In this document: one piece after another, positions 2,121 through 14,886 of the stretch
How positions within the stretch are numbered: position 1 is the stretch's first letter
Layout: each line of letters opens with the position of its first letter
Assembly: GCA_029212415.1 (NCBI GenBank)
Contig: JARGOF010000038.1
Location: 1 to 49,408, forward strand
DNA length: 49,408 nucleotides
Reading direction: 5' to 3'
Origin: Rhizobiaceae bacterium
Lineage (GTDB): Bacteria > Pseudomonadota > Alphaproteobacteria > Rhizobiales > Rhizobiaceae
Made by a program: the position numbers and the translations under genes
Notes under the pieces: generated by a model
Seen by the model: the letters and a program-made list of their open reading frames with translations, nothing else
Told to the model about the DNA's origin: nothing
Database searches by the model: none

Positions 2121-4178
2121 CTACCTGAGCGCTGCCTCAATATTCCCGCCATCTACCGTCAGTACGCCCGCCGTCGTGCGTTCCGCCATCACCAGGCTGA
2201 GGAAGGCGGCTGCGACGTGGTCTGCTGTGACTTCCTGTTTGAGCAGGTTGCCGGACATGTAGTCGGTCTCGCTGATGCCGCGGGCCTTGGAGCGGCTGGC
2301 GATCATGTCGTTGCTGAGCAGGCCGGAGCGGATGCGGTCGGCGTTGACGGCGCTGGAGCGCACGCCGATCTTGCCGTATTCCAGCGCATATTGCCGCGAC
2401 AGGAACAGGGTTGCCGCCTTCGGCAGGCCGTAGGCGCCGAAATTGGCGCCGGGGTTGATTGCCTGTTTGGAGGTGTTGAACAGCAGGACCCCGCCGGTCT
2501 GTTGCAGCTTGAACAGCCGCACGGCATTTTGCGCGACGCTCTGGTGGGCAAAGAAATTCAGCTCGAAACTCTTGCGCAAAAGCGCATCGTCCAGCGTGCC
2601 GATTTCGCCCTGCCAGGCAGCACCCGCATTGGAGATGACGATATCGACCCCGCCAAATGCCTCTGCGGCCGTGTCGAAGGCGGCGCGCACGCTGGCCGGA
2701 TCGGTGACGTCACAGGACACCCCCAGTGAACCATTGCCGATGGATTTGGCGACGGCTGCGGCTGCCGCCGCATCCAGATCAGCCACCACGACATGAGCGC
2801 CGGTTTCAGCCAGCAGCTTGGCGGTGGCCGCGCCGATGGCGCCGGCGCCGCCGGTGACCACGGCCACCTGTCCGGTCAGCGGCAGGATCTTGCGGCTTTT
2901 CAGCTTGGCCTGTTCGAGGGACCAATATTCCAGCTTGAACAATTCTTCTGCCGGCAGCGGATGGAAGCGGCCGATGCTTTCGGCCTCGGTGACGGTTTTC
3001 ATCCAGACTTCGGCGACGTCGCCGGAAATGCTGGCGGTCTTGGCCGTGCGGCCAAAGCCGAAGACGCCGAGACCGGGCACAATCGCCATGCGGGGCATGG
3101 GATCGAGCATGGTACGTTCGATAGCGTCGGCAGCGTTGCAGCGCTCGAAATAGGCCTGGTATTTTTCCATATAGGCGTGAATGGCGGCGCGCGCCGCCTC
3201 GGCCCATGCGTCAATGCCGTCGGCCGGGCAGGGCGGCAGGATCACCGGCCAGTTCTTGACGTGCAGGGTCAGGTCCGGAGTGGTGACACCGCGCAGGCCA
3301 TAATCTTCCAGGTCAACACCATTGATGAAGTTCAGGACATTGTCGGAGGTGCGGAAATCGCAAACGGTGCGGTTGAAATGGCCTTCACCCAGGGCCTCGG
3401 CGATGGCGCCGCGCAGGATGGGCGCCAGATCGCGGGCGCTGGCCGGATTGGCCGGCAGGTCCGTGCGTTGCGCGAATGTGTTGACGCCATTTGCGGCAAT
3501 GTGGTTTTCCGCTTCGGTGACAGCATTGATCATCCGCTCATAGGCTTCGCGCGCGCTGGCGCCGAAGGTGAAAATGCCGTGTTTGTCGAGGATCAAACCC
3601 TCGACGGAAGGATCGCGATCATAGACTTCGCCGGCCACTTTCGCCAGTTCAAAGCCCGGCGGGATATAGGGCACAAAGCCCATGCGGGTGCCGTAAACCT
3701 GTTTGATCAGCGCTTCGGAATTTTCCTGATCGACCAGCGCAAGGACGGCTGTCGAATGGGTGTGATCGACAAATTTATGCGGCAGGAAGGCATGCAGCAA
3801 TGTCTCGACCGACGGGTTGGGGGAGGAGGGATCCATCAGATTGGAGCGTTGCAGCGCCACCATGTCCTCGTCGCTCAGCGCTTCGAGGTTGCGCGCCTTG
3901 AGCAGGGTCTCCAGCTTGACGGCGGGCAGGCCCTGCGGTTCGATGACCGACATGTCCCAGCCGCTGCCCTTGACGCACAGAACATCCCATTCCTCGCCGA
4001 GAATATCCTTGCTGCGGGTTTTGACGGATGTATTGCCGCCGCCATGCAAAACCAGTTGCGGATCACCGCCCAGAAGCCGGGTCGTATAGACACGCAGCGC
4101 CAGATCTTCGGAAATATTGTTCTTGCCATAGCGCGCGACGGTCGCTGCGGCTTCGGTGTCATTCCAGAGATTTTTCAT
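2121..4178 (-). CDS. Class II aldolase / short-chain dehydrogenase fusion (RhaD/RhaEW-like)
   Basis: A 685-residue two-domain enzyme of the family annotated as bifunctional rhamnulose-1-phosphate aldolase/short-chain dehydrogenase. The N-terminal part carries class II (zinc) aldolase signatures: HGGGNTS, a DHTHST histidine pair near residue 137 and LDKHGIFTFG near 200. From about 433 an SDR domain shows the Rossmann motif TGGAGAIG, SNAG, and the catalytic YGLPK near 580. The aldolase would cleave a 1-phospho-ketose to DHAP plus an aldehyde, and the SDR would oxidise or reduce that aldehyde. The ATG at 4178 is chosen because GAGG lies six bases upstream; a TTG 27 codons earlier has no good ribosome site. 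It follows the FucU-like gene. With MtnA and MtnK in the same island and no rhamnose isomerase or kinase, the substrate is more likely 5-methylthioribulose- or 5-deoxyribulose-1-phosphate than rhamnulose-1-phosphate (inference). Confidence 0.88.
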   Translation of the reverse strand: MKNLWNDTEAAATVARYGKNNISEDLALRVYTTRLLGGDPQLVLHGGGNTSVKTRSKDILGEEWDVLCVKGSGWDMSVIEPQGLPAVKLETLLKARNLEALSDEDMVALQRSNLMDPSSPNPSVETLLHAFLPHKFVDHTHSTAVLALVDQENSEALIKQVYGTRMGFVPYIPPGFELAKVAGEVYDRDPSVEGLILDKHGIFTFGASAREAYERMINAVTEAENHIAANGVNTFAQRTDLPANPASARDLAPILRGAIAEALGEGHFNRTVCDFRTSDNVLNFINGVDLEDYGLRGVTTPDLTLHVKNWPVILPPCPADGIDAWAEAARAAIHAYMEKYQAYFERCNAADAIERTMLDPMPRMAIVPGLGVFGFGRTAKTASISGDVAEVWMKTVTEAESIGRFHPLPAEELFKLEYWSLEQAKLKSRKILPLTGQVAVVTGGAGAIGAATAKLLAETGAHVVVADLDAAAAAAVAKSIGNGSLGVSCDVTDPASVRAAFDTAAEAFGGVDIVISNAGAAWQGEIGTLDDALLRKSFELNFFAHQSVAQNAVRLFKLQQTGGVLLFNTSKQAINPGANFGAYGLPKAATLFLSRQYALEYGKIGVRSSAVNADRIRSGLLSNDMIASRSKARGISETDYMSGNLLKQEVTADHVAAAFLSLVMAERTTAGVLTVDGGNIEAALR

Positions 4179-4253
4179 TGCATGCCTCATAAGATGGATA
4201 GTGGCCGCCTGTCGGCCCGCGGACAGATTGTTTTTAGTGGAAGTCTTGTTTTC

Positions 4254-4285
4254 TGACAATAGTCATATTTATCTGACAAAGGTCA
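4254..4285. promoter_or_regulatory. Tandem TGAC-N4-GTCA repeats, candidate operator before the aldolase gene
   Basis: TGAC-N4-GTCA occurs at 4254-4265 and again at 4274-4285, exactly 20 bases apart. The middle of the block, 4261-4278, reads GTCA-N8-TGAC with an AT-rich centre, the same arrangement as the palindrome at 8483-8500 between mtnK and the importer. It covers the end of the FucU-like gene and the gap before the aldolase start, so it could control an internal promoter. The SorC regulator encoded nearby is the obvious candidate to bind it (inference). Confidence 0.45.
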
Positions 4286-4726
4286 AAATATCACGCCCTT
4301 GCGCAGGATGAAGCAGCCAAAGGGGCGCTTCTCGCTGGTGGCCACCACGGCGAAGGCGCGCGCAGCCTGCTGGTAGAACATCTGGCGTTCCAGCGAGCCG
4401 ACGTCGGCGCCTTCCGGCATGGCCGCCCGGATGATGTCAAAGGTCTCGTGATGCACGGTGCCCATCTCCTGCGGCGCACCATCGATTTCCATGCGCAGGG
4501 CGCAGGTCTCGGTGAAATGGTCGAGCGGCATGAGTTCGGTGATGATCTGTGCGGCCTGCGGCGATGAGAAGCCTGGCAGGCGGATCGGTTCCTGCATATT
4601 TGTTGTTTCCGCAATGGAGGCGGCCGGGAAATTGGCATCGACAATCACCAGTTCATCGCCATGGCCCATGGAAAGCAGGCAATGGATGAGATCTGGCGTG
4701 ACCAGTGGATTAATACCTTTAAGCAT
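4283..4726 (-). CDS. FucU/RbsD-family sugar mutarotase
   Basis: A 147-residue protein, normal for the FucU/RbsD family, whose members interconvert sugar anomers or pyranose forms so that a kinase or isomerase gets the right form. The N-terminus MLKGINPLVTPDLIHCL, with GHGDELVIVDANFPA following, is characteristic; the His in GHGD is a conserved active-site residue. The ATG at 4726 is preceded by AAGG with eight bases spacing; a longer frame exists but lacks a ribosome site. It is the first gene of the two-gene unit with the aldolase/SDR fusion and divergent from the SorC regulator. In this setting it probably feeds the correct anomer of an imported sugar to the MtnK-like kinase. Fucose itself is not implied. 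Confidence 0.85.
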   Translation of the reverse strand: MLKGINPLVTPDLIHCLLSMGHGDELVIVDANFPAASIAETTNMQEPIRLPGFSSPQAAQIITELMPLDHFTETCALRMEIDGAPQEMGTVHHETFDIIRAAMPEGADVGSLERQMFYQQAARAFAVVATSEKRPFGCFILRKGVIF

Positions 4727-4818
4727 GGATTTGGCCTTTGCTGTTTGTTGCCGCATTTGACACTGTGCAACATCGTGGGGTTACTTTACATCTGCACTGC
4801 AGTTTGTTCCAGATGCAA

Positions 4819-4840
4819 TGGGCCAGCTGTATTGGGCCAG
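4819..4840. promoter_or_regulatory. Direct repeats between fucU-like gene and sorC
   Basis: TGGGCCAG occurs at 4819-4826 and 4833-4840, a 14-base period, in the shared upstream region of the divergent FucU-like and SorC genes. The region also has CATCTG and CAGATG arms around 4790-4815. These could be regulator sites, but they do not match the GTCA-N8-TGAC palindromes elsewhere in the island. Confidence 0.25.
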
Positions 4841-4921
4841 TTGCAGTGGGATTACGGGGCTTTGTGAACAGCAAAGCTGCAACGGGCACGACAAAGAGCC
4901 GGGTAGCGGGAGAGGCAGACT

Positions 4922-5893
4922 TTGGGTCAGGACAAAAAGAAGGCGCGGCGTCGCTACAGGCCGGATGAACCGGTGGAAGACACGCTGCTGCGCGCCGCAT
5001 GGCTCTATTATTACGAAAACCGCAACCAGAATGAAATCGCCGAGGAATTCGGCGTGTCCCGCGCCACGGTGGTCAATTACCTGCAGCAGGCCCGTGAGCG
5101 CGGTCTTGTCGAGATCCGCCTTGATTCCGCTGCCTTCAACCGCCAGCGCATTTCCGTTGAACTGTGCCGCAAATACGGACTGCAGGAATCCGTCGTCATT
5201 CCGGGAACGGAAATTTCGCTCACCGGCGTTGCCGTCGGCGCGGCGCGGCGCTTGCCCGATCTGCTGGCGCCCGGTGACATTCTGGGTGTCGCCTGGGGCA
5301 TGACAATCTTCAAACTGTCGGAAAGCCTGACGCCGCGCATCATCGACAATATGACCGTCGTGCAGATGGTTGGCTCGATGGCCAGTCCCTACGTCTTTGC
5401 GGCGGAAAGCTGCTCGACCAATATTGCCCACAAGCTGGGCGCCCGGGTCGCCAATTTTTATGCGCCGGCGCTGCTGTCGTCGACGCAGGCCGCACATTTG
5501 TTGAAGCAGGAGCCGGTCATCCGCTCGCAATTCGACCTGCTGGGCAGGATCAACAAGGCGCTGTTTGCCGTCGGGTCCTGCGAAGACAATTCCCATGTGG
5601 TCGAAAGCGGCATCGCTTCGCTTGCCGATCTGGAGGATTACAAGGCGCGCGGCGCGGTCGGCGTCATATGCGGGCGATTTATTGATGCCCGGGGCGAGCA
5701 TATCGTCGGACCGCTGGATGACCGGATGATCGGCATCACCCCGGATGCCCTGCGGGGCCTGTCGGTCGGTATGCTGGTGTCCAACGGGTTTGACAAGGTT
5801 GCCGGCATGCATGCGGCCATGCTGGGCGGCTATGTCACCCATCTTGTCACCGATGCGCCGACGGCCCAGGCATTGCTCAATTTCGATCCCTGA
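4922..5893 (+). CDS. SorC-family sugar-responsive transcriptional regulator
   Basis: A 323-residue DNA-binding protein. The N-terminal helix-turn-helix is at about residues 37-60 (NEIAEEFGVSRATVVNYL) and the rest is the SorC-type sugar-phosphate-binding domain, with conserved GVAWGMT and VGVICGRF segments. SorC-family regulators normally sense a phosphorylated sugar or pathway intermediate and control the adjacent catabolic operon. The start is a TTG with GAGAGG six bases upstream; no in-frame ATG lies upstream. It is divergent from the FucU-like/aldolase unit and convergent with mtnA. It is the likely regulator of the whole 2121-12282 island, probably sensing a phosphopentose such as 5-deoxyribose-1-phosphate or its ketose isomer (inference). 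Confidence 0.88.
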   Translation: MGQDKKKARRRYRPDEPVEDTLLRAAWLYYYENRNQNEIAEEFGVSRATVVNYLQQARERGLVEIRLDSAAFNRQRISVELCRKYGLQESVVIPGTEISLTGVAVGAARRLPDLLAPGDILGVAWGMTIFKLSESLTPRIIDNMTVVQMVGSMASPYVFAAESCSTNIAHKLGARVANFYAPALLSSTQAAHLLKQEPVIRSQFDLLGRINKALFAVGSCEDNSHVVESGIASLADLEDYKARGAVGVICGRFIDARGEHIVGPLDDRMIGITPDALRGLSVGMLVSNGFDKVAGMHAAMLGGYVTHLVTDAPTAQALLNFDP

Positions 5894-5956
5894 AAACATG
5901 ATAAATCCGGGGCCGGCTGATCTTTGTCAGGCCACCCTCAATCAGAAGCCCCTGAA

Positions 5957-7078
5957 TCAGACCGCCCTGACTTTATTCTGGCCCTTGGCCATCTCGGGGA
6001 ACAATTTGGCCAGACCCGCCTGGCTCGCGCTGCAAACGCCGCGTTCCGTGATCAGTCCGGTCACCAGCCTGGATGGTGTGACATCAAAGGCAAAATTGGC
6101 GACCGGCGTTGTCTCGGGGCAGATGAGAACCTTTGTTTCCAAGCCGTTCGCATCTTTTCCCGCCATCCAGGACACCTCGCGGCCATCGCGTTCCTCGATC
6201 GGAATTTCACGCACGCCGTCGTTGATCGTCCAGTCGACGGTGGAGGAGGGCAGCGCCACATAAAACGGCACGCCGTTGTCGCGCGCCGCCAGGGCTTTCA
6301 GATAGGTGCCGATCTTGTTGCAGACATCGCCGCTGGCGGTGGTCCTGTCGGTGCCGACGATGCACATATCCACTTTGCCATGCTGCATCAGATGGCCGCC
6401 GGCATTGTCGACGATCAACGTGTGATTGACGCCGTGGCGTCCCAGCTCCCAGGAGGTCAGCGATGCGCCCTGGTTGCGCGGCCGTGTTTCATCCACCCAA
6501 ACATGCACCTCTATTCCCAGATCATGGGCCTGATAGATCGGTGAGGTGGCGGTGCCCCAATCGACGGTTGCCAGCCAGCCGGCGTTGCAATGGGTCAATA
6601 TATTGACCGCTTCACCCGGTTCCTTGCGCGCTGCGATGGCCTTGATGAGTTCGAGCCCGTGGCTGCCGATGGCGTGGTTGACAGCGACATCGGCGTCACA
6701 CAGCGTGGCCGCCAACGCCCAGGCCGCATCGGCCCTTTGCTCGCTCGGCAGGGGCTGCAATAGACGCACCGTTTCATCCAGCGCCCATTTCAGGTTGATG
6801 GCTGTCGGCCGTGTGGCGTGCAGAACCGCATAGGCCTTCATCAGGCTCTCGTCACTGGCATCCTGCCGCATGGCAATGGCCATGCCATAGGCGGCGGTGG
6901 CGCCGATCAGCGGTGCACCGCGCACCCACATGTCAGCAATGGCCGTTGCCGCGTCATCCAGGCTTTTCAGCTGGCGGGTGACAAAACTGTGCGGCAAGCG
7001 GGTCTGGTCGATGATGCCGACGGTGCGTCCGTCAGTCTCCGCCCAGATGGAACGATAAGGTTTGCCATCGATCTTCAT
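5957..7078 (-). CDS. mtnA: S-methyl-5-thioribose-1-phosphate isomerase family (MtnA/DrdI-like)
   Basis: A 373-residue aldose-ketose isomerase of the MtnA/eIF2B-like fold, converting 5-methylthioribose-1-phosphate or 5-deoxyribose-1-phosphate to the ribulose-1-phosphate. Family landmarks: RGAPLIG at 53-59, the catalytic cysteine C164 in THCNAGW, VDETRP at 195-200 and the catalytic aspartate D244 in VGTDR. The stretch after the cysteine (VDWGTATSP) departs from the GYGTALGV type common in canonical MtnA and may mark a subgroup. The ATG at 7078 overlaps the mtnK stop (ATGA), so the two are translationally coupled; a longer upstream frame inside mtnK is discarded. No mtnB, mtnC or mtnD is visible, so the product is not obviously heading to methionine salvage. 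Confidence 0.93.
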
Positions 7079-8364
7079 AGGGTTACTCCCCGGTTCTTGA
7101 TGGACCGGGCCAGATCGCAGAGCTGGCCGATGGATGAAAACTGGTGGCGAGAGACCAGCAATTCGCGGCCCATGGCAAGCGCATTGGCTTCGCATCTTGC
7201 GCGCCGGTCCGGATCCTCGATGGTCTCCATATCCTCGACATGGGCAAGCCCCACCAGACGACGGATCATCTTGGTTCCGGCAAAGCCCACCGTGTCGACA
7301 AACAGGCTCCGCAAGGTCCGGGTCAGGGCCTGCTCGGACCCCATGGCGTCGTCCTGATCTTCAAACAGGCTGCGCGGAAACAAGATGCCGGTGCGTTCGC
7401 CATGCCACAATTCGCGGAACCGGGCTTCAAAGGTGGCCCAGGTGTCGATGGCGGTTTGCAGCAGCCATCTCTGATAGGCGTCGCGATCACCGGCCTGCTG
7501 GGCGTGGCCGGCTTGCGAGAAATAGGCAAGGAAGTAATTGGCAAACAGCGCGCCCGTGTCAAACCCCATGGGGCCGTAGAAGGAAAACTCCGGGTCGATC
7601 ACCCGTGTTTCGGCCTGGTTGACCATCACCGAACCGCTGTGGAAATCCGCATGCAGCAGCGATTGGGTGCAGGTGATGAAGCGCTCCTTCATCACCTGGA
7701 CGGCCACTTTGACATCGCGGTCCTGGCGCAATGCGTGGACCAGACGATCCAGCTGCGGGCTCGTCCACTGGTTCAGTTCCGCATCCTGATAGGGCTCTGT
7801 AAAGACCAGACTTTCGGTGATGTCGCAAAGCGCGACATTGTCTGAATAGAGCGCAACATCGGCCTTTTTCTGCGCAGTATCCATATGCAGGTCGGAGGTG
7901 CGGAACAGCGTTTCGGCCAGGAACAGGCCCAGATCATTGGCCAATCTGGGATAGGTAATGCCCTGAATGAAGCCTTTGCGCAGGATGATATGGTCTGACA
8001 GATATTCCATTGCGATCAACGCATTGGCCTCGTCATAGGCATAAATCTCAGGCACCCGGGCGCCATCCGAACTGGCTGCGGCCTGACGCGTCAGCGTGTG
8101 ATATTCGAAATAGGATCTTTTCAGCGGCAGCGGCCAGGATTCGCCGATCAGCCGGACATAGGGCAAAGCCTGTTTGATGATCAGCGAACCGGCAGGGCCC
8201 TCGACAATGAAGACAAGGTTCAGATTGCCATCACCGACTTCCACTGTCTTGAGCTGGTCCGGCGCGCCGCCAACCCTTGCAGCAAGCAAGGCATCGCTGG
8301 CAATATAGTCCTTGATCGTTTCAACCGTAAATGCTTCGTAACCGTCCGGCGTTTCTATGGCCAT
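7075..8364 (-). CDS. mtnK: S-methyl-5-thioribose kinase family (MtnK/DrdK-like)
   Basis: A 429-residue kinase of the protein-kinase-like MTR kinase family, phosphorylating C1 of 5-methylthioribose, or of 5-deoxyribose in DrdK-type relatives. GDGNLN at 44-49 is the nucleotide loop, IIKQALP near 62 holds the ATP-contacting lysine, HADFHSGS near 238 is the catalytic loop, and [13 protein letters not shown] near 256 is the metal-binding and family signature. The ATG at 8364 sits behind a very strong GGGGGAGG with tight spacing; a TTG nine codons upstream is possible. It is somewhat longer than the roughly 400 residues usual for characterised MtnK. It is first in a two-gene unit with mtnA and divergent from the sugar importer, with a palindrome in the shared upstream region. 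Confidence 0.92.
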
Positions 8365-8482
8365 GGCCTCCCCCGATCTCTTTGTGTGCAATTTCCATCG
8401 AGCTTCTGCACAATCATAAAGGGCTTGTGCGCAGCGCGGAAATCATATTTTGTTCCATCCATAAAAACATCAATTTGAATTA

Positions 8483-8500
8483 TGTCAAGATATATTGACA
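8483..8500. promoter_or_regulatory. 18-bp palindrome between mtnK and the ABC importer
   Basis: TGTCAA and TTGACA arms surround GATATA. A further TTGACA follows at 8502-8507. The palindrome lies in the divergent promoter region, where a TTGACA arm could also act as a -35 element in either direction, so a bound repressor could shut both operons. Its GTCA-N8-TGAC layout matches 4261-4278. SorC is the likely binder (inference). Confidence 0.55.
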
Positions 8501-8541
8501 TTTGACAGATTGGCTGTAACGTCAACCTCTGGGAGTGAGAA

Positions 8542-10143
8542 ATGAGTGCATCACCATTGCATCAGACTGCCGCCCGCCCAGTGTTGCAGCCCGAAGGGGG
8601 GGTGCAGCCCCAGGGGGTGTTGAAACTCGAGGGGGTGGAGAAATCCTTCGGCGCCAACAAGGTGCTGCAGGGTGTCGACCTGTCGATATCCGCCGGCGAG
8701 ATCGTGGTGCTGATGGGGGCCAATGGTGCGGGAAAATCCACCCTGGTCAAGATCATCGCCGGTGTGCATGACGCCGATACCGGCAGCATCGCGCTTGACG
8801 GCGTCGCCTTCAATCCCTCCTCACCGGCAGAAGCAATCCGCTCCGGTGTCTGTATCGTCCATCAGTCGATCAATGATGGCGTGGCGCCCGATCTCAGTGT
8901 CGCCCAGAACCTGTTGCTCGACCGTTTGTGCAATGGCGAAACCGGATTTTTCTTCACTCCCGGCAAAGCGCGCAAAGAGGCGCAGACCATAGCGGCGACG
9001 CTTGAACTGGATCTTGATCTCGACCGGCCGGTGCGTGAACTCAATCTTGCCGACCGCCAGCTGGTATCCATATCGCGGGCCCTGGCGCAAAACCCCAAAT
9101 TGCTGATCCTCGACGAGCCGACATCCTCCCTGTCGCAGCGCGAGGCCGAACGCCTGTTCACCATCGTCGAAGGTCTGCGGGCAAGCGGCGTGGCCATTCT
9201 TTATATCTCCCACCGCATGTCGGATATCCGCCGCCTGGCAGACCGGATCATTGCCCTGCGGGACGGCAGGATAACCGGCACATTCGAAAAGCCGCTGAAC
9301 TATGAGGCTGCTGTCAACGCCATGCTGGGCCACGGCCTTCTGGCCACCCGCAATCAGGCGGGCGAACGGGGCGAGCATCTGTTCGAGGCACGCGATATTG
9401 TCCTGAAAAATGGCAGCGCACCCTTCTCCTTTGCGCTGGCGCGCGGTGAAATCGTCGCCCTGACCGGCCTGGTCGGAACAGGCAAAAGCGAACTGGCCGA
9501 ATGCATGTTCGGTGTCAGAAAACCTCTGTCCGGTGCTTTCGAACTGCTCGCCAAGACCTATGATCCGGCAAGCCCCGGCGAGGCCATCGCCAAAGGCGTG
9601 TTCATGGCCGCAAAGGACCGGGCCAATTCATCGATCATTCCCGGCTTTGACATTGCCCGCAATCTGACCTTGCCTTTCCTGACCAGTTTTTCGACCATGG
9701 GAACGCTCAACCGGCGGCGCGAGAACCAGTCGGCGCGCATCATGATCGACCAGTTGGATGTTGTCTGCCAGTCCGAGCAGGATATGCTGTCCGCCCTTTC
9801 GGGAGGCAATCAGCAAAAGGTCGTCATCGCCCGCTGGCTGTCTCAGCCCAGCCGTGTGCTGGTGCTCGACGAGCCGTTTCAGGGCGTTGATATCAGGGCG
9901 CGCGGCGACATCGGCCGCAAATTGCGCGAGACGGCGCAGGAGCGCGCCACACTCATTCTCACCGCCGAGCTTGACGAGGCTCTGGAGGTGGCAGACCGTA
10001 TTCTGGTCATGAGCAATCACACGATCGTCGGCGAACATCGCACCGCTGATCTGGACATGGATGCACTTCTGGCGCAGATATCCGGCGCATCCATCATCGC
10101 ACAACAGGCAGCATCCGTCAGTGATGCCGCACACGGGAATTGA
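8542..10143 (+). CDS. Ribose-type sugar ABC importer, double ATPase subunit (RbsA-like)
   Basis: A 533-residue cytoplasmic protein with two fused nucleotide-binding domains, the hallmark of the CUT2 (RbsA/XylG/MglA) sugar importers. Domain 1 has Walker A GANGAGKST at 59-67 and Walker B LLILDEP near 187. Domain 2 has the degenerate Walker A GLVGTGKSE near 310, signature LSGGNQQK near 418 and Walker B VLVLDEP near 440; a degenerate second site is normal for this family. The ATG has GGGAG eight bases upstream. It is first in the importer operon, three bases before the permease gene, and divergent from mtnK. Together with the permease and binding protein it should import a pentose-like sugar, probably the substrate of MtnK. 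Confidence 0.95.
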   Translation: MSASPLHQTAARPVLQPEGGVQPQGVLKLEGVEKSFGANKVLQGVDLSISAGEIVVLMGANGAGKSTLVKIIAGVHDADTGSIALDGVAFNPSSPAEAIRSGVCIVHQSINDGVAPDLSVAQNLLLDRLCNGETGFFFTPGKARKEAQTIAATLELDLDLDRPVRELNLADRQLVSISRALAQNPKLLILDEPTSSLSQREAERLFTIVEGLRASGVAILYISHRMSDIRRLADRIIALRDGRITGTFEKPLNYEAAVNAMLGHGLLATRNQAGERGEHLFEARDIVLKNGSAPFSFALARGEIVALTGLVGTGKSELAECMFGVRKPLSGAFELLAKTYDPASPGEAIAKGVFMAAKDRANSSIIPGFDIARNLTLPFLTSFSTMGTLNRRRENQSARIMIDQLDVVCQSEQDMLSALSGGNQQKVVIARWLSQPSRVLVLDEPFQGVDIRARGDIGRKLRETAQERATLILTAELDEALEVADRILVMSNHTIVGEHRTADLDMDALLAQISGASIIAQQAASVSDAAHGN

Positions 10144-10146
10144 ACA

Positions 10147-11154
10147 ATGGCAAACACTGCAAAGGCACAAACACGCTTCAGGGATCTGGCCATTCGCTAT
10201 GGCTTCCTGGTGTTGTTGCTGGTCATTGTCATCTTCTTCACGGTGATGGAACCGGCATTCATGTCGCTGCGCTCCATGGTGTTCATCTTCCAGTCCGTTT
10301 CGATCACCGCTGTGCTTGCTCTTGGCGTGACCGCAACCCTTGTGGTGGACGGGTTCGACCTTTCCATCGGTTCCGTGGCGGCATCATCGATGATGACCGC
10401 GTCCTACGCGATGGTTGTCTGGGGTCTGGGCTCGGTCGAGGCGGTGGCCCTGTGCCTGCTGCTGGGCCTGGGCGTTGGCCTGTTCAACGGCCTGCTGGTG
10501 GTCGTGGCGCGCGTTCCGGACCTGCTGGCGACGCTCGGCACCATGTTCCTGCTGCTTGGCCTGCAGCTCATTCCAACCGCCGGTCGCTCCATCGCCAAGG
10601 GCATGATGATGCCTGATGGCTCGACATCGACCGGGGAATTCGACAAGTCCTTCCTGTTTCTGGGCAGGCACCGCCTGTGGGATATCGTGCCGGTCTCCGT
10701 CATCATCATGCTGGCGCTGGCGCTGGTCATCTGGTTCTTTCTGGAATTCACCCGCTGGGGCCGCGTCATGTATGCGATCGGCAGCAATGAACTGGCCAGC
10801 CGTCTGGCCGGTGCGCCGGTCAGTCGCTACAAGATTGCCGCCTATATGATCTCCGGCGTCTCCGCATCGATCGGCGGCATCCTGCTTGCCGCACGGGTCG
10901 GCAGGGGCGATGTCAGTTCGGGCAACAACCTGCTTCTGGATGCGGTGGCCGCCGCGCTGATCGGCTTTGCCGTGCTGGGCGTTGCCAAGCCGAATGCCTT
11001 CGGTACACTGGTCGGCGCGCTGTTCGTCGGTGTTTTGTTGCAGGGACTGACCATGATGAACGCGCCCTATTATGCACAGGATTTCGTCAAGGGCAGCGTG
11101 CTGGTCTTTGCCCTCGTCTTTACTTTCAGCCTCACAAGGGCTGCTCGTCGCTGA
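10147..11154 (+). CDS. Ribose-type sugar ABC importer, permease subunit (RbsC-like)
   Basis: A 335-residue inner-membrane protein with about eight to ten hydrophobic helices, of the BPD_transp_2 (RbsC/XylH) family. Typical features are the GVTATLVVDGFDLSIGS segment early on, TRWGRVMYAIGSNELASRLAG in the cytoplasmic loop that meets the ATPase, and YMISGVSASIGGILLAARVG after it. It starts three bases after the ATPase gene and precedes the binding-protein gene by 72 bases. It forms the transmembrane channel; CUT2 permeases usually act as homodimers. Confidence 0.95.
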   Translation: MANTAKAQTRFRDLAIRYGFLVLLLVIVIFFTVMEPAFMSLRSMVFIFQSVSITAVLALGVTATLVVDGFDLSIGSVAASSMMTASYAMVVWGLGSVEAVALCLLLGLGVGLFNGLLVVVARVPDLLATLGTMFLLLGLQLIPTAGRSIAKGMMMPDGSTSTGEFDKSFLFLGRHRLWDIVPVSVIIMLALALVIWFFLEFTRWGRVMYAIGSNELASRLAGAPVSRYKIAAYMISGVSASIGGILLAARVGRGDVSSGNNLLLDAVAAALIGFAVLGVAKPNAFGTLVGALFVGVLLQGLTMMNAPYYAQDFVKGSVLVFALVFTFSLTRAARR

Positions 11155-11226
11155 CGCGGTTTTCGCGTCGGATTTTGCCTGCCGGAAGCCTCATGCTCCG
11201 GTTCACTCACAGTGGGAGGATACAAA

Positions 11227-12282
11227 ATGCTAAACAGGATAACCCGGCGCATGATCGTCAAACTGGGACTTGCCGCCATGGCGACGACCGGACTTGGTTT
11301 TGCCGCCCAGGCGGCAGACATGCCCAAACCATTCGACAAGCCCGGCGACGTCAAGATCGCGCTGGTGCGCTATCTTTCAACCGGTGACTTCTTCCAGGCC
11401 TATCTGTCCGGTGTCGAACGTCAGTCCGAAGCGCTTGGCGTTGACCTGCGCATCTTCGATTCGCGTCAGGATGCGGCCCTGCAGGCCGACATGGTCGATC
11501 AGGCCATTGCTCTGGGTGTGGACGGCATCGTGGTTCAGCATGGCCTGACGGAAGCCATGTCAGAGGCCGTGCAGCGCGCTGTCGATGCCGGCATCAAGGT
11601 GGTGGCTTTTGATGTGAACGTCGGAAACCCGGCTGTGCCGCAGATCGAGCAGAGCGACCAGCTTCTGGCGCAGCTTGCCCTCGAACAGGCGATCAAGGAC
11701 AATGGTGAAAGCTTCACCGCCGGTTACGTCTATGTGGCCGGTATCGCACCTCTGGATCGCCGCGATGAAAAATGGCGGGAATTCAAGGAAAAATATCCCG
11801 GCATCAATGAAGTGGCCCAGTTCGGAACGCTCGACAATCCGATCGCAAACTCGGTCGCCAACCAGGCCTCTGCCGTGCTGCGCGCCAATCCGACCATCAA
11901 TGTGATGTTCGCTCCCTATGACGAATTTGCCAAGGGTGTGAAGATTGCCGTTGATGAAGCGGGTCTCAACAAGGACGTCAAGATCTACAGCGCCGACGTG
12001 TCCTCGGCTGACATTCAGGCGATGCGTGAAGGCGACAGTGCATGGGTTGCGACGGCTGCCACCAATCCGGCTGTTGTCGGCGAAGTGTCCGTGCGTGCTC
12101 TGGCCATGTTGCTGGCAGGTGAAGATCCAGGCCACAATGTCATCGTGCCGCCAACCTTGATCACGCGTGACATGCTGATGGAACTCGACATCGAAAACAT
12201 GGAACAGCTTTCGGCCAAACTGCCGCAGTTCGCCCATGCCGATGTTGCCGTTGCCGACTGGATGCCATTGCCGAGCCGTTGA
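11227..12282 (+). CDS. Ribose-type sugar ABC importer, periplasmic binding protein (RbsB-like)
   Basis: A 351-residue periplasmic-binding-protein (PBP1/RbsB-like) subunit. The N-terminus has a signal peptide with a twin arginine (TRRMIVKLG) and a likely cleavage after AAQA, so Tat export is possible although the motif is not perfect. The mature protein begins near ADMPKPF and shows the fold's repeated segments, such as QADMVDQAIALGVDGIVVQ and KVVAFDVN. The ATG at 11227 is chosen for GGGAGGA seven bases upstream. A strong terminator follows at 12341-12368, closing the importer operon. Its ligand cannot be read from sequence; context suggests 5-methylthioribose, 5-deoxyribose or a related pentose. 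Confidence 0.93.
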   Translation: MLNRITRRMIVKLGLAAMATTGLGFAAQAADMPKPFDKPGDVKIALVRYLSTGDFFQAYLSGVERQSEALGVDLRIFDSRQDAALQADMVDQAIALGVDGIVVQHGLTEAMSEAVQRAVDAGIKVVAFDVNVGNPAVPQIEQSDQLLAQLALEQAIKDNGESFTAGYVYVAGIAPLDRRDEKWREFKEKYPGINEVAQFGTLDNPIANSVANQASAVLRANPTINVMFAPYDEFAKGVKIAVDEAGLNKDVKIYSADVSSADIQAMREGDSAWVATAATNPAVVGEVSVRALAMLLAGEDPGHNVIVPPTLITRDMLMELDIENMEQLSAKLPQFAHADVAVADWMPLPSR

Positions 12283-12368: not shown

Positions 12369-12437
12369 GTGTTCAATCCGCTGTATTCTCGCTATTGGAA
12401 CCTGTCGTCGTTCCGTTGGTATATGAGAGCCTGCCTC

Positions 12438-13328
12438 ATGAGATTGCCGTTTCGCTTTTGCCTCACACTCTGCTTGGCCCTCTGCTTGGCCCTCTGTCTT
12501 GGGCTGATCGCGAGTCTGTTCGCCGGGGCGATACCGCAGGCAATGGCCCAGCAGGCCTCTGCGGCAATTCCCAATTACTGGGATCCGCGTGAGCGCGTTG
12601 ACGTTCCGGACCTGTCGCCGCGCACCCGCATCCGTTTTTTGACCACGCATGATTTTCCGCCCTTCAACTTCATTGACCAGAACAGCCGTGTATCGGGTTT
12701 TCACGTCGATCTGGCGCGGGAAATCTGTGATGAACTGGGTGTGGAGGCAAAATGCCAGATCCAGATCCTGCCCTGGGAAGAACTGGCCGCAGCCATGCAG
12801 ACCGGGCAGGGCGAAGCCATTATTGCCGGCCTCTCGATGAGCGAAGAAAGCCGCAAGGATTATCTTTTTACCCGCCCGTTTCTGAAGTTTCCGGCGCGGT
12901 TCATCCGGGCGAAAAACAAGGCAATCGAGGGCGAGGATGCAGCCGCCCTGGCCGGCAAGAAGGTTGGTGTTCTTGCCAATTCAACCCATGCGGCGATGTT
13001 GCGCGCCTATTTCCCGGACATCCAATCGGTGACATTTGACCGGTCCGACTGGCTCTATGACGCTTTGAAGTCCGGCGATATCGATGCCATTTTCGGCGAT
13101 GGTGTGCAGCTGTCCTTCTGGCTGACAAGCAAGGGGGCAAAAGACTGCTGTTCCTATTTCGATGGCCCCTATTTCGCCCCGTCCTTCCTCGGCGAAGGTC
13201 TGTCGATCGCCGTGCGGCGCGACAGTCCTGATCTGGTCGAGGCCTTTGATCATGCGCTGCTGGAAATCAGCAAGGACGGGCGCATGCGCGAATTGTATTT
13301 CCGCTATTTTCCCAATGGATTGTACTGA
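12438..13328 (+). CDS. Periplasmic solute-binding protein family 3 (amino-acid-binding-like)
   Basis: A 296-residue exported protein. The signal peptide is leucine/cysteine-rich and contains a short internal repeat (LCLALCLALCLGL, from a repeated DNA segment at about 12470-12500), with likely cleavage after AMAQ. The mature part is an SBP_bac_3 domain: RIRFLTTHDFPPFNF, then GFHVDLAREICDELG, GEAIIAGLSMSEESR and AVRRDSPDLVEAF. Such proteins bind amino acids or related small polar molecules for an ABC importer or a sensor. No permease or ATPase adjoins it, so its partner is encoded elsewhere or it works alone. The start is uncertain: 12438 has AGAG upstream, and an ATG at 12423 is also possible. 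Confidence 0.85.
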   Translation: MRLPFRFCLTLCLALCLALCLGLIASLFAGAIPQAMAQQASAAIPNYWDPRERVDVPDLSPRTRIRFLTTHDFPPFNFIDQNSRVSGFHVDLAREICDELGVEAKCQIQILPWEELAAAMQTGQGEAIIAGLSMSEESRKDYLFTRPFLKFPARFIRAKNKAIEGEDAAALAGKKVGVLANSTHAAMLRAYFPDIQSVTFDRSDWLYDALKSGDIDAIFGDGVQLSFWLTSKGAKDCCSYFDGPYFAPSFLGEGLSIAVRRDSPDLVEAFDHALLEISKDGRMRELYFRYFPNGLY

Positions 13329-13336
13329 AGCCGGCT

Positions 13337-14146
13337 CTACTTTCGAAAGGGCAACATCAGAGCCCATGCGAGGCGTGAAGGCGCCTTGTCACGATATTCC
13401 TTCAGACCGATCTCCATGCCCTCATGGCCAAGTCTTGGCTGTGCCCAATAGGTCTTGAACAGCCGATCCCAGAAGGGGAAATTGAAGCCGTAATTGGTGT
13501 CGGTTTCCCTGTGATCGCTGGAATGGTGGACCCGGTGCATATCAGGCGTCACCAGTACCAGCCGCAGCACCCGGTCCAGCCCCAGCGGCAGGCGGGCATT
13601 GGAGTGGTTGAACATGGCGGTGCCATTGAGCACGATCTCGAAAATCAGAACTGCCACGGCCGGTGGGCCGAGGCAGACAATGATCAGGGCTTTCCACAGC
13701 ATGGAAAGGACAATTTCAAGCGGGTGAAAGCGCAGCGCTGTGGTCACGTCGAAACCCGTGTCGGAATGGTGCATGCGATGTATGCGCCACAACAGGGGTA
13801 TCTTGTGGCTGGCGACATGTTCCAGCCAGACGGAGAAATCCAGAATGACAAAGGCAATGATTCCGGCGATCCAGACCGGAACGTCAAGATAGGCAAACAA
13901 TCCATAGCCCTGATCGCTGGCCCATAGGGCCGTGCCAACGGCCGCCAGGGGAAAGATCACCCTGAGGGCAATGGATGACACCACCACCATCGACAGATTG
14001 GTAAACCACCGGCGCGCCTTCAGAGCGCCGATGACTTCGTCACGCTGCAGGCGTGGACTGAGCAGTTCGAACAGGGCCATCGACAGAAAAATGACAGCGA
14101 AGGCCAGCAGCCGCACCAGGGGTTCAGACAGGCCAAACAGCGCCAT
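13337..14146 (-). CDS. Sterol desaturase / fatty acid hydroxylase superfamily membrane protein
   Basis: A 269-residue protein with about four membrane helices and the histidine clusters that bind the di-iron centre: HVASH, HRMHHSD, NHSN and HRVHHS. Members hydroxylate or desaturate lipids using O2 at the membrane; the substrate here is unknown. The start ATG has GGAG seven bases upstream. It lies 23 bases downstream of the TerB-like gene on the same strand and is convergent with the family 3 binding-protein gene, only eight bases apart. Confidence 0.9.
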   Translation of the reverse strand: MALFGLSEPLVRLLAFAVIFLSMALFELLSPRLQRDEVIGALKARRWFTNLSMVVVSSIALRVIFPLAAVGTALWASDQGYGLFAYLDVPVWIAGIIAFVILDFSVWLEHVASHKIPLLWRIHRMHHSDTGFDVTTALRFHPLEIVLSMLWKALIIVCLGPPAVAVLIFEIVLNGTAMFNHSNARLPLGLDRVLRLVLVTPDMHRVHHSSDHRETDTNYGFNFPFWDRLFKTYWAQPRLGHEGMEIGLKEYRDKAPSRLAWALMLPFRK

Positions 14147-14169
14147 TCATGGTCTCCGGTTGATCAAGT

Positions 14170-14583
14170 CTAGTGGGTGCGATAGCGCGCCATGGCGCCA
14201 CGCTCGATGGCGGCGCATGTCAATTTGTCGAGGCCCAGCCTGTCACGCAGCAGCTGCAGCAGTCGAAGCTCTTCCTGCTCCACATGCAGATCGGCAGCGG
14301 CAATCTCCACGGCCAGCGCATAAGCCGTATCGTAGAGATTATGCGGCAATGCGTCATGCACAATCAGGAGAACAGTATCAAGACCATCCTGTTCGCTCAA
14401 AATGGCACCGCAATCCTTTGAGACGCGCAGCAGTCTTTCCTCATTGAAGTCATTGAAAATAGGCACGGTACGCGTGATGTTTCCGATCTGCCCCAATTCG
14501 GCATCGGTCATGCTTCTGTCAACGGCGGACATTGTAACCATGATATAAATGAGTGCGTCCTGAATTGTGATCGGAGATGACAT
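14170..14583 (-). CDS. TerB-family (tellurite resistance-like) protein
   Basis: A 137-residue soluble, all-helical protein of the TerB/DjlA-like family. The first helix has YIMVTMSAVDRSMTDAELGQI and a second acidic segment (AAADLHVEQEELRLL) near the C-terminus, the usual pair of metal-linked motifs. The exact role of stand-alone TerB proteins is not established; tellurite resistance should not be assumed. The ATG at 14583 has AAGGA six bases upstream. It is divergent from lysS and probably co-transcribed with the hydroxylase-like gene. Confidence 0.8.
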   Translation of the reverse strand: MSSPITIQDALIYIMVTMSAVDRSMTDAELGQIGNITRTVPIFNDFNEERLLRVSKDCGAILSEQDGLDTVLLIVHDALPHNLYDTAYALAVEIAAADLHVEQEELRLLQLLRDRLGLDKLTCAAIERGAMARYRTH

Positions 14584-14886
14584 GCAAGGTCCTTCTGCAT
14601 CTGCTTGCGAATATGATTGCATCTAAACTAGGAACCGGCAGGGGCCAGCGCAAGGCCGTTGTTTCGCATGGCTGTGACAAAACCAAGGCAGGCCGACGAT
14701 ATATGCGCTGCAACATTGACCTTCAACGGCCTTCGGCATAGGTTCCGCGCGCCGCTGAGGGTGTAATTTTCTGCGGCAAAACCGACCAACCATGTTAAAT
14801 GGCCCGATGACAATCGCCGGGTAAAAGAGTTCCAGCCAATCTGGCTGAGCAGTCCATTGCCGACTGTGCACAAGCGTGAAAGTGAA
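14584..14886. other. Divergent promoter region between terB-like gene and lysS
   Basis: About 300 bases without a supported gene. It must contain promoters for both divergent genes, but I see no clear consensus element. Confidence 0.4.

Follow-up and report, generated by a model that had tools for sequence, protein, structure and literature searches.

A putative import and degradation island for 5-methylthioribose and/or 5-deoxyribose in a Rhizobiaceae bacterium, with an aldolase/short-chain dehydrogenase fusion

Introduction

The dihydroxyacetone phosphate (DHAP) shunt encoded by mtnK-mtnA-ald2 in Escherichia coli ATCC 25922 employs a kinase, an isomerase and a class II aldolase to produce DHAP and an aldehyde (PMC12632272, PMC10986504). 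Here, this and related systems are compared with a gene island at positions 2121-12282 of a 49,408-nucleotide stretch of DNA from a Rhizobiaceae bacterium (assembly GCA_029212415.1, contig JARGOF010000038.1, positions 1 to 49,408; the whole stretch analysed is the window), in which mtnK and mtnA accompany a gene for a class II aldolase fused to a short-chain dehydrogenase (SDR). DHAP shunt and drd clusters are described in PMC10986504, PMC12632272, PMC6302742, PMC5893883 and PMC6079011, and the fusion enzyme RhaEW in PMC3870299.

The E. coli operon also holds a putative transporter gene and is regulated by MtnR and CRP (PMC12632272, PMC10986504, PMC6302742). The Ald2 step is also known in Rhodospirillum rubrum, where the methylthioacetaldehyde is reduced to methylthioethanol (PMC6302742), and in E. 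coli acetaldehyde ends as ethanol under aerobic conditions and also as acetate under anaerobic ones (PMC10986504). Some drdAIK clusters, published in 2018, have sugar transporters, and one has a fucose-mutarotase homologue (PMC6079011). RhaEW oxidises lactaldehyde with NAD+ and had no activity with NADH, neither DHAP nor lactate was detected without NAD+, and its orthologues were described as always encoded in rha loci (PMC3870299).

The island and the proposed pathway

The island comprises mtnK, mtnA, an RbsD/FucU gene and the fusion, all on the minus strand, and a SorC/DeoR-type regulator and a CUT2 importer, all on the plus strand. All the parts listed in the original prediction, which had been made from the letters of the window, are present, with the following coordinates and profile matches:

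2121-4259, minus strand: class II aldolase/SDR fusion, with Aldolase_II and adh_short domains (NF006192, 1058.4 bits, cut-off 639)
4283-4756, minus strand: RbsD/FucU-family protein, proposed sugar mutarotase (PF05025, RbsD_FucU, 108.5 bits)
4922-5893, plus strand: SorC/DeoR-type sugar-binding transcriptional regulator (PF04198, Sugar-bind, 183.2 bits)
5957-7078, minus strand: MtnA-type aldose-1-phosphate isomerase (TIGR00512, 406.1 bits, cut-off 279)
7075-8391, minus strand: MtnK-type 5-methylthioribose kinase (TIGR01767, 489.5 bits, cut-off 275)
8542-10143, plus strand: CUT2 sugar ABC transporter ATPase (ABC_tran in two stretches; best model AraG, below cut-off)
10147-11154, plus strand: CUT2 sugar ABC transporter permease (BPD_transp_2, 132.5 bits)
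11212-12282, plus strand: sugar-binding protein of the 5-methylthioribose-binding type (4ry8, 229.1 bits; Foldseek ranks 1-3, 38% identity)

The predicted ATGA overlap of mtnK and mtnA was read directly at 7078-7075. The true start of the fusion is probably ATG 4178, the first position of the NF006192 match.

This island is probably an import and degradation regulon for 5-methylthioribose and/or 5-deoxyribose, in which the DHAP shunt would take an oxidative form. The genomic tests agree with a route to DHAP through kinase, isomerase and aldolase in which a rhamnose-type fusion replaces the stand-alone aldolase; this route is supported by the linkage to mtnK, by a related locus (L146) in which a FucA/DrdA-like aldolase takes the fusion's place, and by an importer of the 5-methylthioribose-binding type. 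Of the original prediction, in which the same chemistry served an imported 5-deoxypentose, the route was supported (linkage, L146 and the solved binding protein 4ry8), but import need not be the sole source of the sugar.

From these data we infer the substrate, every catalytic step, the direction of the SDR half and the regulation. The CUT2 transporter would import the sugar, and the RbsD/FucU protein would speed the exchange of its anomers. MtnK would phosphorylate the sugar at C1, and MtnA would isomerise the resulting aldose-1-phosphate to a ketose-1-phosphate. In the fusion, the aldolase half would cleave this product to DHAP and methylthioacetaldehyde or acetaldehyde, and the SDR half would oxidise the aldehyde to the acid with NAD+, while the SorC/DeoR-type protein would control both divergent units. 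The SDR half probably makes the pathway an oxidative variant, because its characterised homologue RhaEW oxidises with NAD+ (PMC3870299). Sequence alone cannot separate methylthioribose, deoxyribose and ribose as the substrate.

Conservation of the cluster in related loci

One set of the related loci (numbered with L) comprises the best 80 of 577 candidates, fetched by fusion similarity alone, and holds mostly fusions closely related to that of the island. Within these 80, mtnK was found in 71, mtnA in 72 and the regulator in 78. Because the fusion, mtnK, mtnA and the three importer genes, the core set of six, occur together in the fetched DNA of 67 of the 80, the grouping is more than chance. 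Nine loci are without mtnK, five of them being contigs or stretches of 3.6-12.4 kb, one a stretch of 15 kb with mtnA, and three long (L021, L061 and L070). Locus L020, from a metagenome-assembled Rhizobiaceae genome, has identical gene order and 96-99% identity to the island, and four annotated plasmid records have the same core set in a different order, in which the regulator immediately precedes the fusion.

Locus L146, from one of the 15 mtnK-bearing genomes that have no fusion within 15 kb of mtnK, lacks a fusion in its fetched stretch, and it encodes the regulator, a class II aldolase of 218 amino acids, mtnA, mtnK and the importer. This aldolase matches FucA (209.6 bits) and the Bacillus thuringiensis aldolase structure 6btd (142.4 bits); judged by these matches, a FucA/DrdA-like stand-alone aldolase occupies the place of the fusion. 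A similar aldolase (51%) is encoded in L145, with distant mtnK and mtnA.

A split DXS-like transketolase is present in the cluster in 8 of the 80 loci and a RuBisCO-like protein in 7 of the 80. The split transketolase, mostly with the RuBisCO-like protein, was found at L009:18856-21919 and in L010, L012, L049, L057, L066 and L080, and further in L085, L096, L097, L099, L112, L114 and L115. The best solved relative of the RuBisCO-like protein is 3qfw, followed by entries labelled as ribulose-bisphosphate carboxylase and diketo-methylthiopentyl-phosphate enolase, and the two proteins may form another branch starting at the ketose phosphate of this pathway. Additionally, an acyl-CoA synthetase lies upstream of the cluster in 27 of 84 loci (L025 copy: PRK08162, 924.4 against a cut-off of 677). 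As a next pathway step it was set aside; shared synteny appears to be the simpler reading, since the nine listed acyl-CoA synthetase loci each share at least one more neighbour family (RND-type, TetR-type; judged by eye on first residues only).

The fusion in the Rhizobiaceae and its separation from rhamnose-type enzymes

The gene identities (by model), the conserved linkage, the split from rhamnose-type fusions, the nearest relatives and the conserved candidate operators were computed directly. For the family survey, 101 genomes were drawn evenly, linkage was counted within 15 kb with an mtnK threshold of E <= 1e-50, and fusions were classed by the identity of their aldolase part to that of the island fusion (class A, 58-100%; class B, 41-50%; class C, 31-37%). 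Class A fusions, found in 22 places, were near mtnK in 16 and near rhaI in none; class B fusions (19 places) were near mtnK in seven and likewise never near rhaI; class C fusions (48 places) were near rhaI in 46 and near mtnK in none. A neighbourhood search across Hyphomicrobiales had been proposed as a check of the original prediction, and within the family the class A counts agree with it. At the genome level, 19 genomes have both a class A fusion and mtnK, three the fusion only, 19 mtnK only and 60 neither (Fisher p 1.6e-7, uncorrected for kinship), and rhaI is present at another place in 10 of the 22 genomes with class A fusions.

The island fusion scored 467.1 bits against the rhamnose equivalog TIGR02632, below the cut-off of 567.75, which the rhaI-linked control fusion L129 passes with 1077.9. 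A tree was built from 54 aldolase parts picked from the fetched loci, 29 of them class A including the island fusion, and L061 was left out for missing columns. The nine rhaI-linked rows formed one clade on a long branch (support of 100 in the Shimodaira-Hasegawa-like approximate likelihood ratio test), class A formed one clade (99), and six of the seven mtnK-linked class B rows formed another (100), the seventh, L115, joining the glycerol-type rows; L138, from a class C place that lacks rhaI, is set off from the rest by a very long branch. One aligned position is, from FucA chemistry, presumably the catalytic acid, and it holds Glu in all class A and B rows and in L138, and Asp in all nine rhaI-linked rows; the island fusion keeps the conserved His columns and this Glu. 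By model score, context and tree, the island fusion is not of the rhamnose type. In its SDR half, the second Rossmann strand ends in Asp, which favours NAD. A pattern for the SDR glycine motif was too strict, with 17 of 109 matching and Ala at its sixth position in the island fusion, and does not speak against the domain.

Other members of the fusion family have different surroundings. In L100 and L101, which are named plasmid records, fusions at 49% identity lie beside sn-glycerol-1-phosphate dehydrogenase, GlpD and a HAD hydrolase, a glycerol-phosphate-type context that likely points to another substrate for the fusion family. Class B aldolases in frames of 416-438 amino acids, too short for an SDR half, lie beside two-permease CUT2-type importers and a SorC-type regulator in L141, L142 and L143, and are possibly an unfused relative with another substrate.

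Kinase, isomerase, mutarotase and importer

The nearest structures to MtnK were 2pyw (389.4 bits), labelled uncharacterised and presumably a plant methylthioribose kinase, and the methylthioribose kinase 2olc (249.6 bits), while the nearest solved relatives of MtnA were entries labelled methylthioribose-1-phosphate isomerase. The RbsD/FucU protein scored 76.8 against the L-fucose mutarotase model NF011949, under its cut-off of 141.

For the binding protein, the top solved relative by sequence was 4ry8 (229.1 bits), whose title is 5-methylthioribose transporter solute binding protein (TLET_1677). With the structure model of the binding protein (31 sequences, predicted local distance difference test score, pLDDT, 86.8), 4ry8 also took Foldseek ranks 1-3 at 38% identity, followed at rank 4 by the Yersinia sugar-binding entry 5ulb (30%, ligand not named) and then by ribose-binding-named entries at 20-25%. 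The identity to E. coli RbsB was 26%. Two Asp positions that we take to contact the ligand in RbsB are kept, and the positions of Arg90 and Asn190, presumed contacts as well, are Val and Tyr in the binding protein and Leu and Trp in 4ry8. By its nearest relative, the importer is of the 5-methylthioribose-binding type.

Fusion loci with a nucleoside-type module

Of the six class A places with no mtnK nearby, three belong to genomes without an mtnK match at the survey threshold (E <= 1e-50; G049, G055 and G062). There, the fusion is accompanied by mtnA and by genes for a Bmp-type (PnrA-like) importer, a deaminase-like amidohydrolase, a small cupin and a purine nucleoside phosphorylase. The mtnA gene of G062 is situated some 1.7 kb past the fetched stretch, and in G055, the fusion and mtnA are both cut by contig ends. 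The models that fit the G062 amidohydrolase best, each of them below its cut-off, are those for TRZ/ATZ-type hydrolases and for 5'-deoxyadenosine deaminase, and the other module amidohydrolases are 68-84% identical to this copy. The G049 phosphorylase passes PRK08202 (334.9 against 218), the G055 and G062 copies being known from tblastn. Since the fusion accompanies mtnA with either a kinase or a phosphorylase feed, the gene context points to the product of MtnA as the substrate of the fusion.

The other three of these class A places differ. In G068, the cupin and amidohydrolase are next to the fusion and mtnK-mtnA are at another place; in G019 (whose contig is that of Flavimaribacter, L021), about 34 kb separate mtnK from the fusion; and in G086, mtnK is at the very end of another contig, where linkage to the fusion is not judgeable. 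In four genomes (L124, L152, L153, L154, L126), of which three have no mtnK match, the fusion is linked to the nucleoside-type module or to part of it, and parts of it were near full mtnK clusters in Nitratireductor (L030, L069).

The rest of the host genome

The host assembly (5.84 Mb, 85 contigs, 99.04% complete, 3.52% contaminated) contains a single match over the cut-off for the fusion, a single MtnA match, which is the island copy, and a single MtnK match at E <= 1e-50. Four class II aldolases were matched including the fusion, which is the sole one on its contig, and none of the three stand-alone ones reached the MtnB cut-off (matched stretches scanned, not whole proteins). Acireductone dioxygenase MtnD (ARD, PF03079) had no match in the whole genome, and canonical methionine salvage was set aside on this result (MtnC not searched). 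The rhizobial-type rhamnose isomerase RhaI (TIGR02629) had no genome match either, other rhamnose-isomerase families not having been searched. Six genes of the nucleoside-phosphorylase family are present, of which none is above the cut-off of the models for 5'-methylthioadenosine (MTA) phosphorylase and one passes TIGR01705 for MTA/S-adenosylhomocysteine (SAH) nucleosidase (332.8 against a cut-off of 152.2). A ribokinase is over its cut-off (303.7 against 299.65). Three distant RuBisCO-like stretches best match the OiaX model, not MtnW (matched stretches only), and neither a RuBisCO-like protein nor a split transketolase was found in the island at 2121-12282.

Because an MTA/SAH nucleosidase is encoded, 5-methylthioribose and 5-deoxyribose may, by gene content, also arise intracellularly. 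The original prediction, which did not consider this source, is corrected in that the sugar need not be solely imported, given this nucleosidase and some relatives that seem nucleoside-fed at MtnA. The absences that it had listed hold genome-wide for mtnD and MTA phosphorylase, and for rhamnose isomerase as far as the rhizobial type.

Alternative explanations

It is unlikely that the pathway is as proposed with an SDR half that reduces the aldehyde to the alcohol, in the manner of the separate alcohol dehydrogenase of the known shunt. SDR enzymes often act as reductases, which speaks for this direction, and the Asp that ends the second Rossmann strand, favouring NAD, speaks against it. The fate of the aldehyde in R. 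rubrum, methylthioethanol (PMC6302742), and in aerobic E. coli, ethanol (PMC10986504), would also suit a reductase, whereas RhaEW oxidises with NAD+ and is inactive with NADH (PMC3870299).

An improbable substrate is D-ribose, or ribose-1-phosphate from nucleosides, in which case ribulose-1-phosphate would be split to DHAP and glycolaldehyde, and the latter oxidised to glycolate. The binding protein is nearest to a 5-methylthioribose-binding protein (38%, with ribose-binding entries at 20-25%), a ribokinase is already present in the genome and MtnK passes the methylthioribose kinase model, all of which argue against ribose, even though the CUT2 components show a low-identity resemblance to ribose transporters. 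Haloarchaea use a ribulose-1-phosphate route, NCBIfam holds a model named ribulose-1-phosphate aldolase, and in the three relatives where a purine nucleoside phosphorylase and a Bmp-type importer accompany mtnA and the fusion, plain ribose-1-phosphate could be the feed.

It is very unlikely that the ketose-1-phosphate made by MtnK and MtnA goes elsewhere, for instance into a route through a RuBisCO-like protein, and that the fusion acts on an unrelated compound: the split transketolase and RuBisCO-like genes of the related clusters would suit it, but neither is found in the island, the RuBisCO-like stretches of the genome best match OiaX, and the fusion stays with mtnA in the three genomes without an mtnK match. 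Catabolism of L-rhamnose or L-fucose, in which the fusion would be a genuine RhaD/RhaEW and the adjoining RbsD/FucU gene would encode its mutarotase, draws on the RhaEW superfamily membership of the fusion and is most improbable; rhamnose use was rejected on the TIGR02632 score with its L129 control, the lack of a rhizobial-type RhaI, the rhaI linkage (class A 0/22, class C 46/48) and the separate class A clade, and the L-fucose mutarotase cut-off was missed.

Several points weigh against a 5-deoxypentose pathway through this fusion. In the structure model of the aldolase half (pLDDT 80.9), the best fold match is the uncharacterised Thermoplasma domain 3m4r, far ahead of the enzymes of known substrate, among which FucA-type entries come first, DrdA (6btd) is at rank 46 and E. 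coli rhamnulose-1-phosphate aldolase at ranks 43, 44 and 47; since DrdA scores like the latter, the modelled fold does not discriminate among substrates. The C4 position differs between rhamnulose-1-phosphate and ribulose-1-phosphate, and the fusion must therefore differ in stereochemistry from its characterised homologue RhaEW. No measured activity of a class A fusion was met in the literature, the linkage counts carry no correction for kinship, and 15 of the 38 genomes with mtnK have no fusion within 15 kb. Finally, the RbsD/FucU gene is present in only 3 of the 80 loci and two further stretches, and is therefore not essential.

Regulator, candidate operators and neighbouring genes

The regulator matches the NCBIfam DeoR and LsrR models below cut-off. 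A motif scan of related loci gave three candidate operators in the island, none with a strand assigned:

4254-4265: TGAC-N4-GTCA, upstream of the fusion
4274-4285: second TGAC-N4-GTCA, overlapping the end of the RbsD/FucU gene
8484-8499: GTCAA-N6-TTGAC, between the divergent mtnK and importer genes

In the group of loci with a window-like regulator, TGAC-N4-GTCA is upstream of the fusion in 8 of 12 regions (6 of 10 with the near-copies island/L020 and L021/L118 counted once), with six matches in 284,382 bp elsewhere. In the other group, it is upstream of the regulator in 66 of 88 loci (65 of 86 distinct), with 126 matches in total in 1,785,285 bp. Between mtnK and the importer, GTCAA-N6-TTGAC is present in 7 of 12 regions of the window-like group (6 of 11 with island/L020 once) and nowhere else, and GTCAA-N5-TTGAC in 72 of 72 of the other group (71 of 71 distinct), with none elsewhere in its 1,785,285 bp. 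The pattern used at first, TGTCAA-N6-TTGACA with up to two mismatches, matched 9 of 84 mtnK/importer regions and was later reworked; in the window, it has a perfect match at 8483 and a one-mismatch match at 5778, inside the regulator gene, with 0.13 expected. The spacing scan was exploratory, with 64 arrangements tried, uncorrected, on related loci, and duplicate regions were L118 = L021, L120 = L053 and L062 = L063. The element at 8484-8499 may instead be back-to-back -35 boxes.

On the 3' side of the importer, 12369-13328 encodes a family 3 extracellular solute-binding protein that is amino-acid-binding-like and was not counted in the island. A fatty-acid-hydroxylase-family protein at 13337-14622, with below-cut-off likeness to the ornithine lipid hydroxylase OlsE, is accompanied by a TerB-like protein just under the Pfam cut-off.

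Implications and comparison with known systems

If the proposed pathway is correct, Rhizobiaceae and their relatives gain a route for the by-products of S-adenosylmethionine use, an oxidised sulfur product is predicted, and the annotation "bifunctional aldolase/short-chain dehydrogenase" covers a non-rhamnose role in many genomes. A wider reading, which we put forward tentatively, is that the non-rhamnose fusion subclass was recruited family-wide as the shared last enzyme of a 5-deoxypentose/5'-deoxynucleoside network, with on-protein oxidation of the aldehyde. Its two feeds might be a free-sugar importer with the kinase, or a nucleoside importer with a deaminase and a phosphorylase. In such a network, the sulfur of methylthioribose would leave as methylthioacetate, not methylthioethanol. 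The RuBisCO-like protein and the split transketolase, for which no description was found, are conceivably a further branch in some members.

Among the papers listed in the literature searches, none describes the fusion with mtnK/mtnA in its title or the start of its abstract. Among the parts of the island, the fusion is the one new to kinase-isomerase-aldolase clusters, because such clusters had already been published with importers and a mutarotase homologue (PMC6079011). The originally predicted distinctness of the combination of parts is accordingly narrowed to the fusion.

The island and the E. coli DHAP shunt share the kinase-isomerase-class II aldolase logic and a transporter gene, a putative one in E. 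coli. The E. coli shunt has a stand-alone Ald2 and an aldehyde that mostly goes to the alcohol (PMC10986504), whereas the island has an aldolase/SDR fusion, a CUT2 importer and a SorC/DeoR-type regulator. The drdAIK salvage of 5-deoxyribose in B. thuringiensis and others has the same logic, with transporters in some clusters (PMC6079011); its aldolase is the FucA-like DrdA (6btd), with no dehydrogenase fusion mentioned in the text compared, unlike the fused aldolase of the island. The sugar-binding protein TLET_1677 (4RY8) is the closest solved relative of the island's binding protein by both sequence and fold, yet at only 38% identity. With RhaEW, the L-rhamnulose-1-phosphate aldolase/L-lactaldehyde dehydrogenase, the island fusion shares domain architecture and superfamily; it differs in scoring under the TIGR02632 cut-off, in its position next to mtnK/mtnA and in a Glu at the place of the Asp of the rhaI-linked fusions in the tree. 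Similarly, class A and mtnK-linked class B fusions lie away from rhaI, unlike the RhaEW orthologues, which were reported as always encoded in rha loci (PMC3870299).

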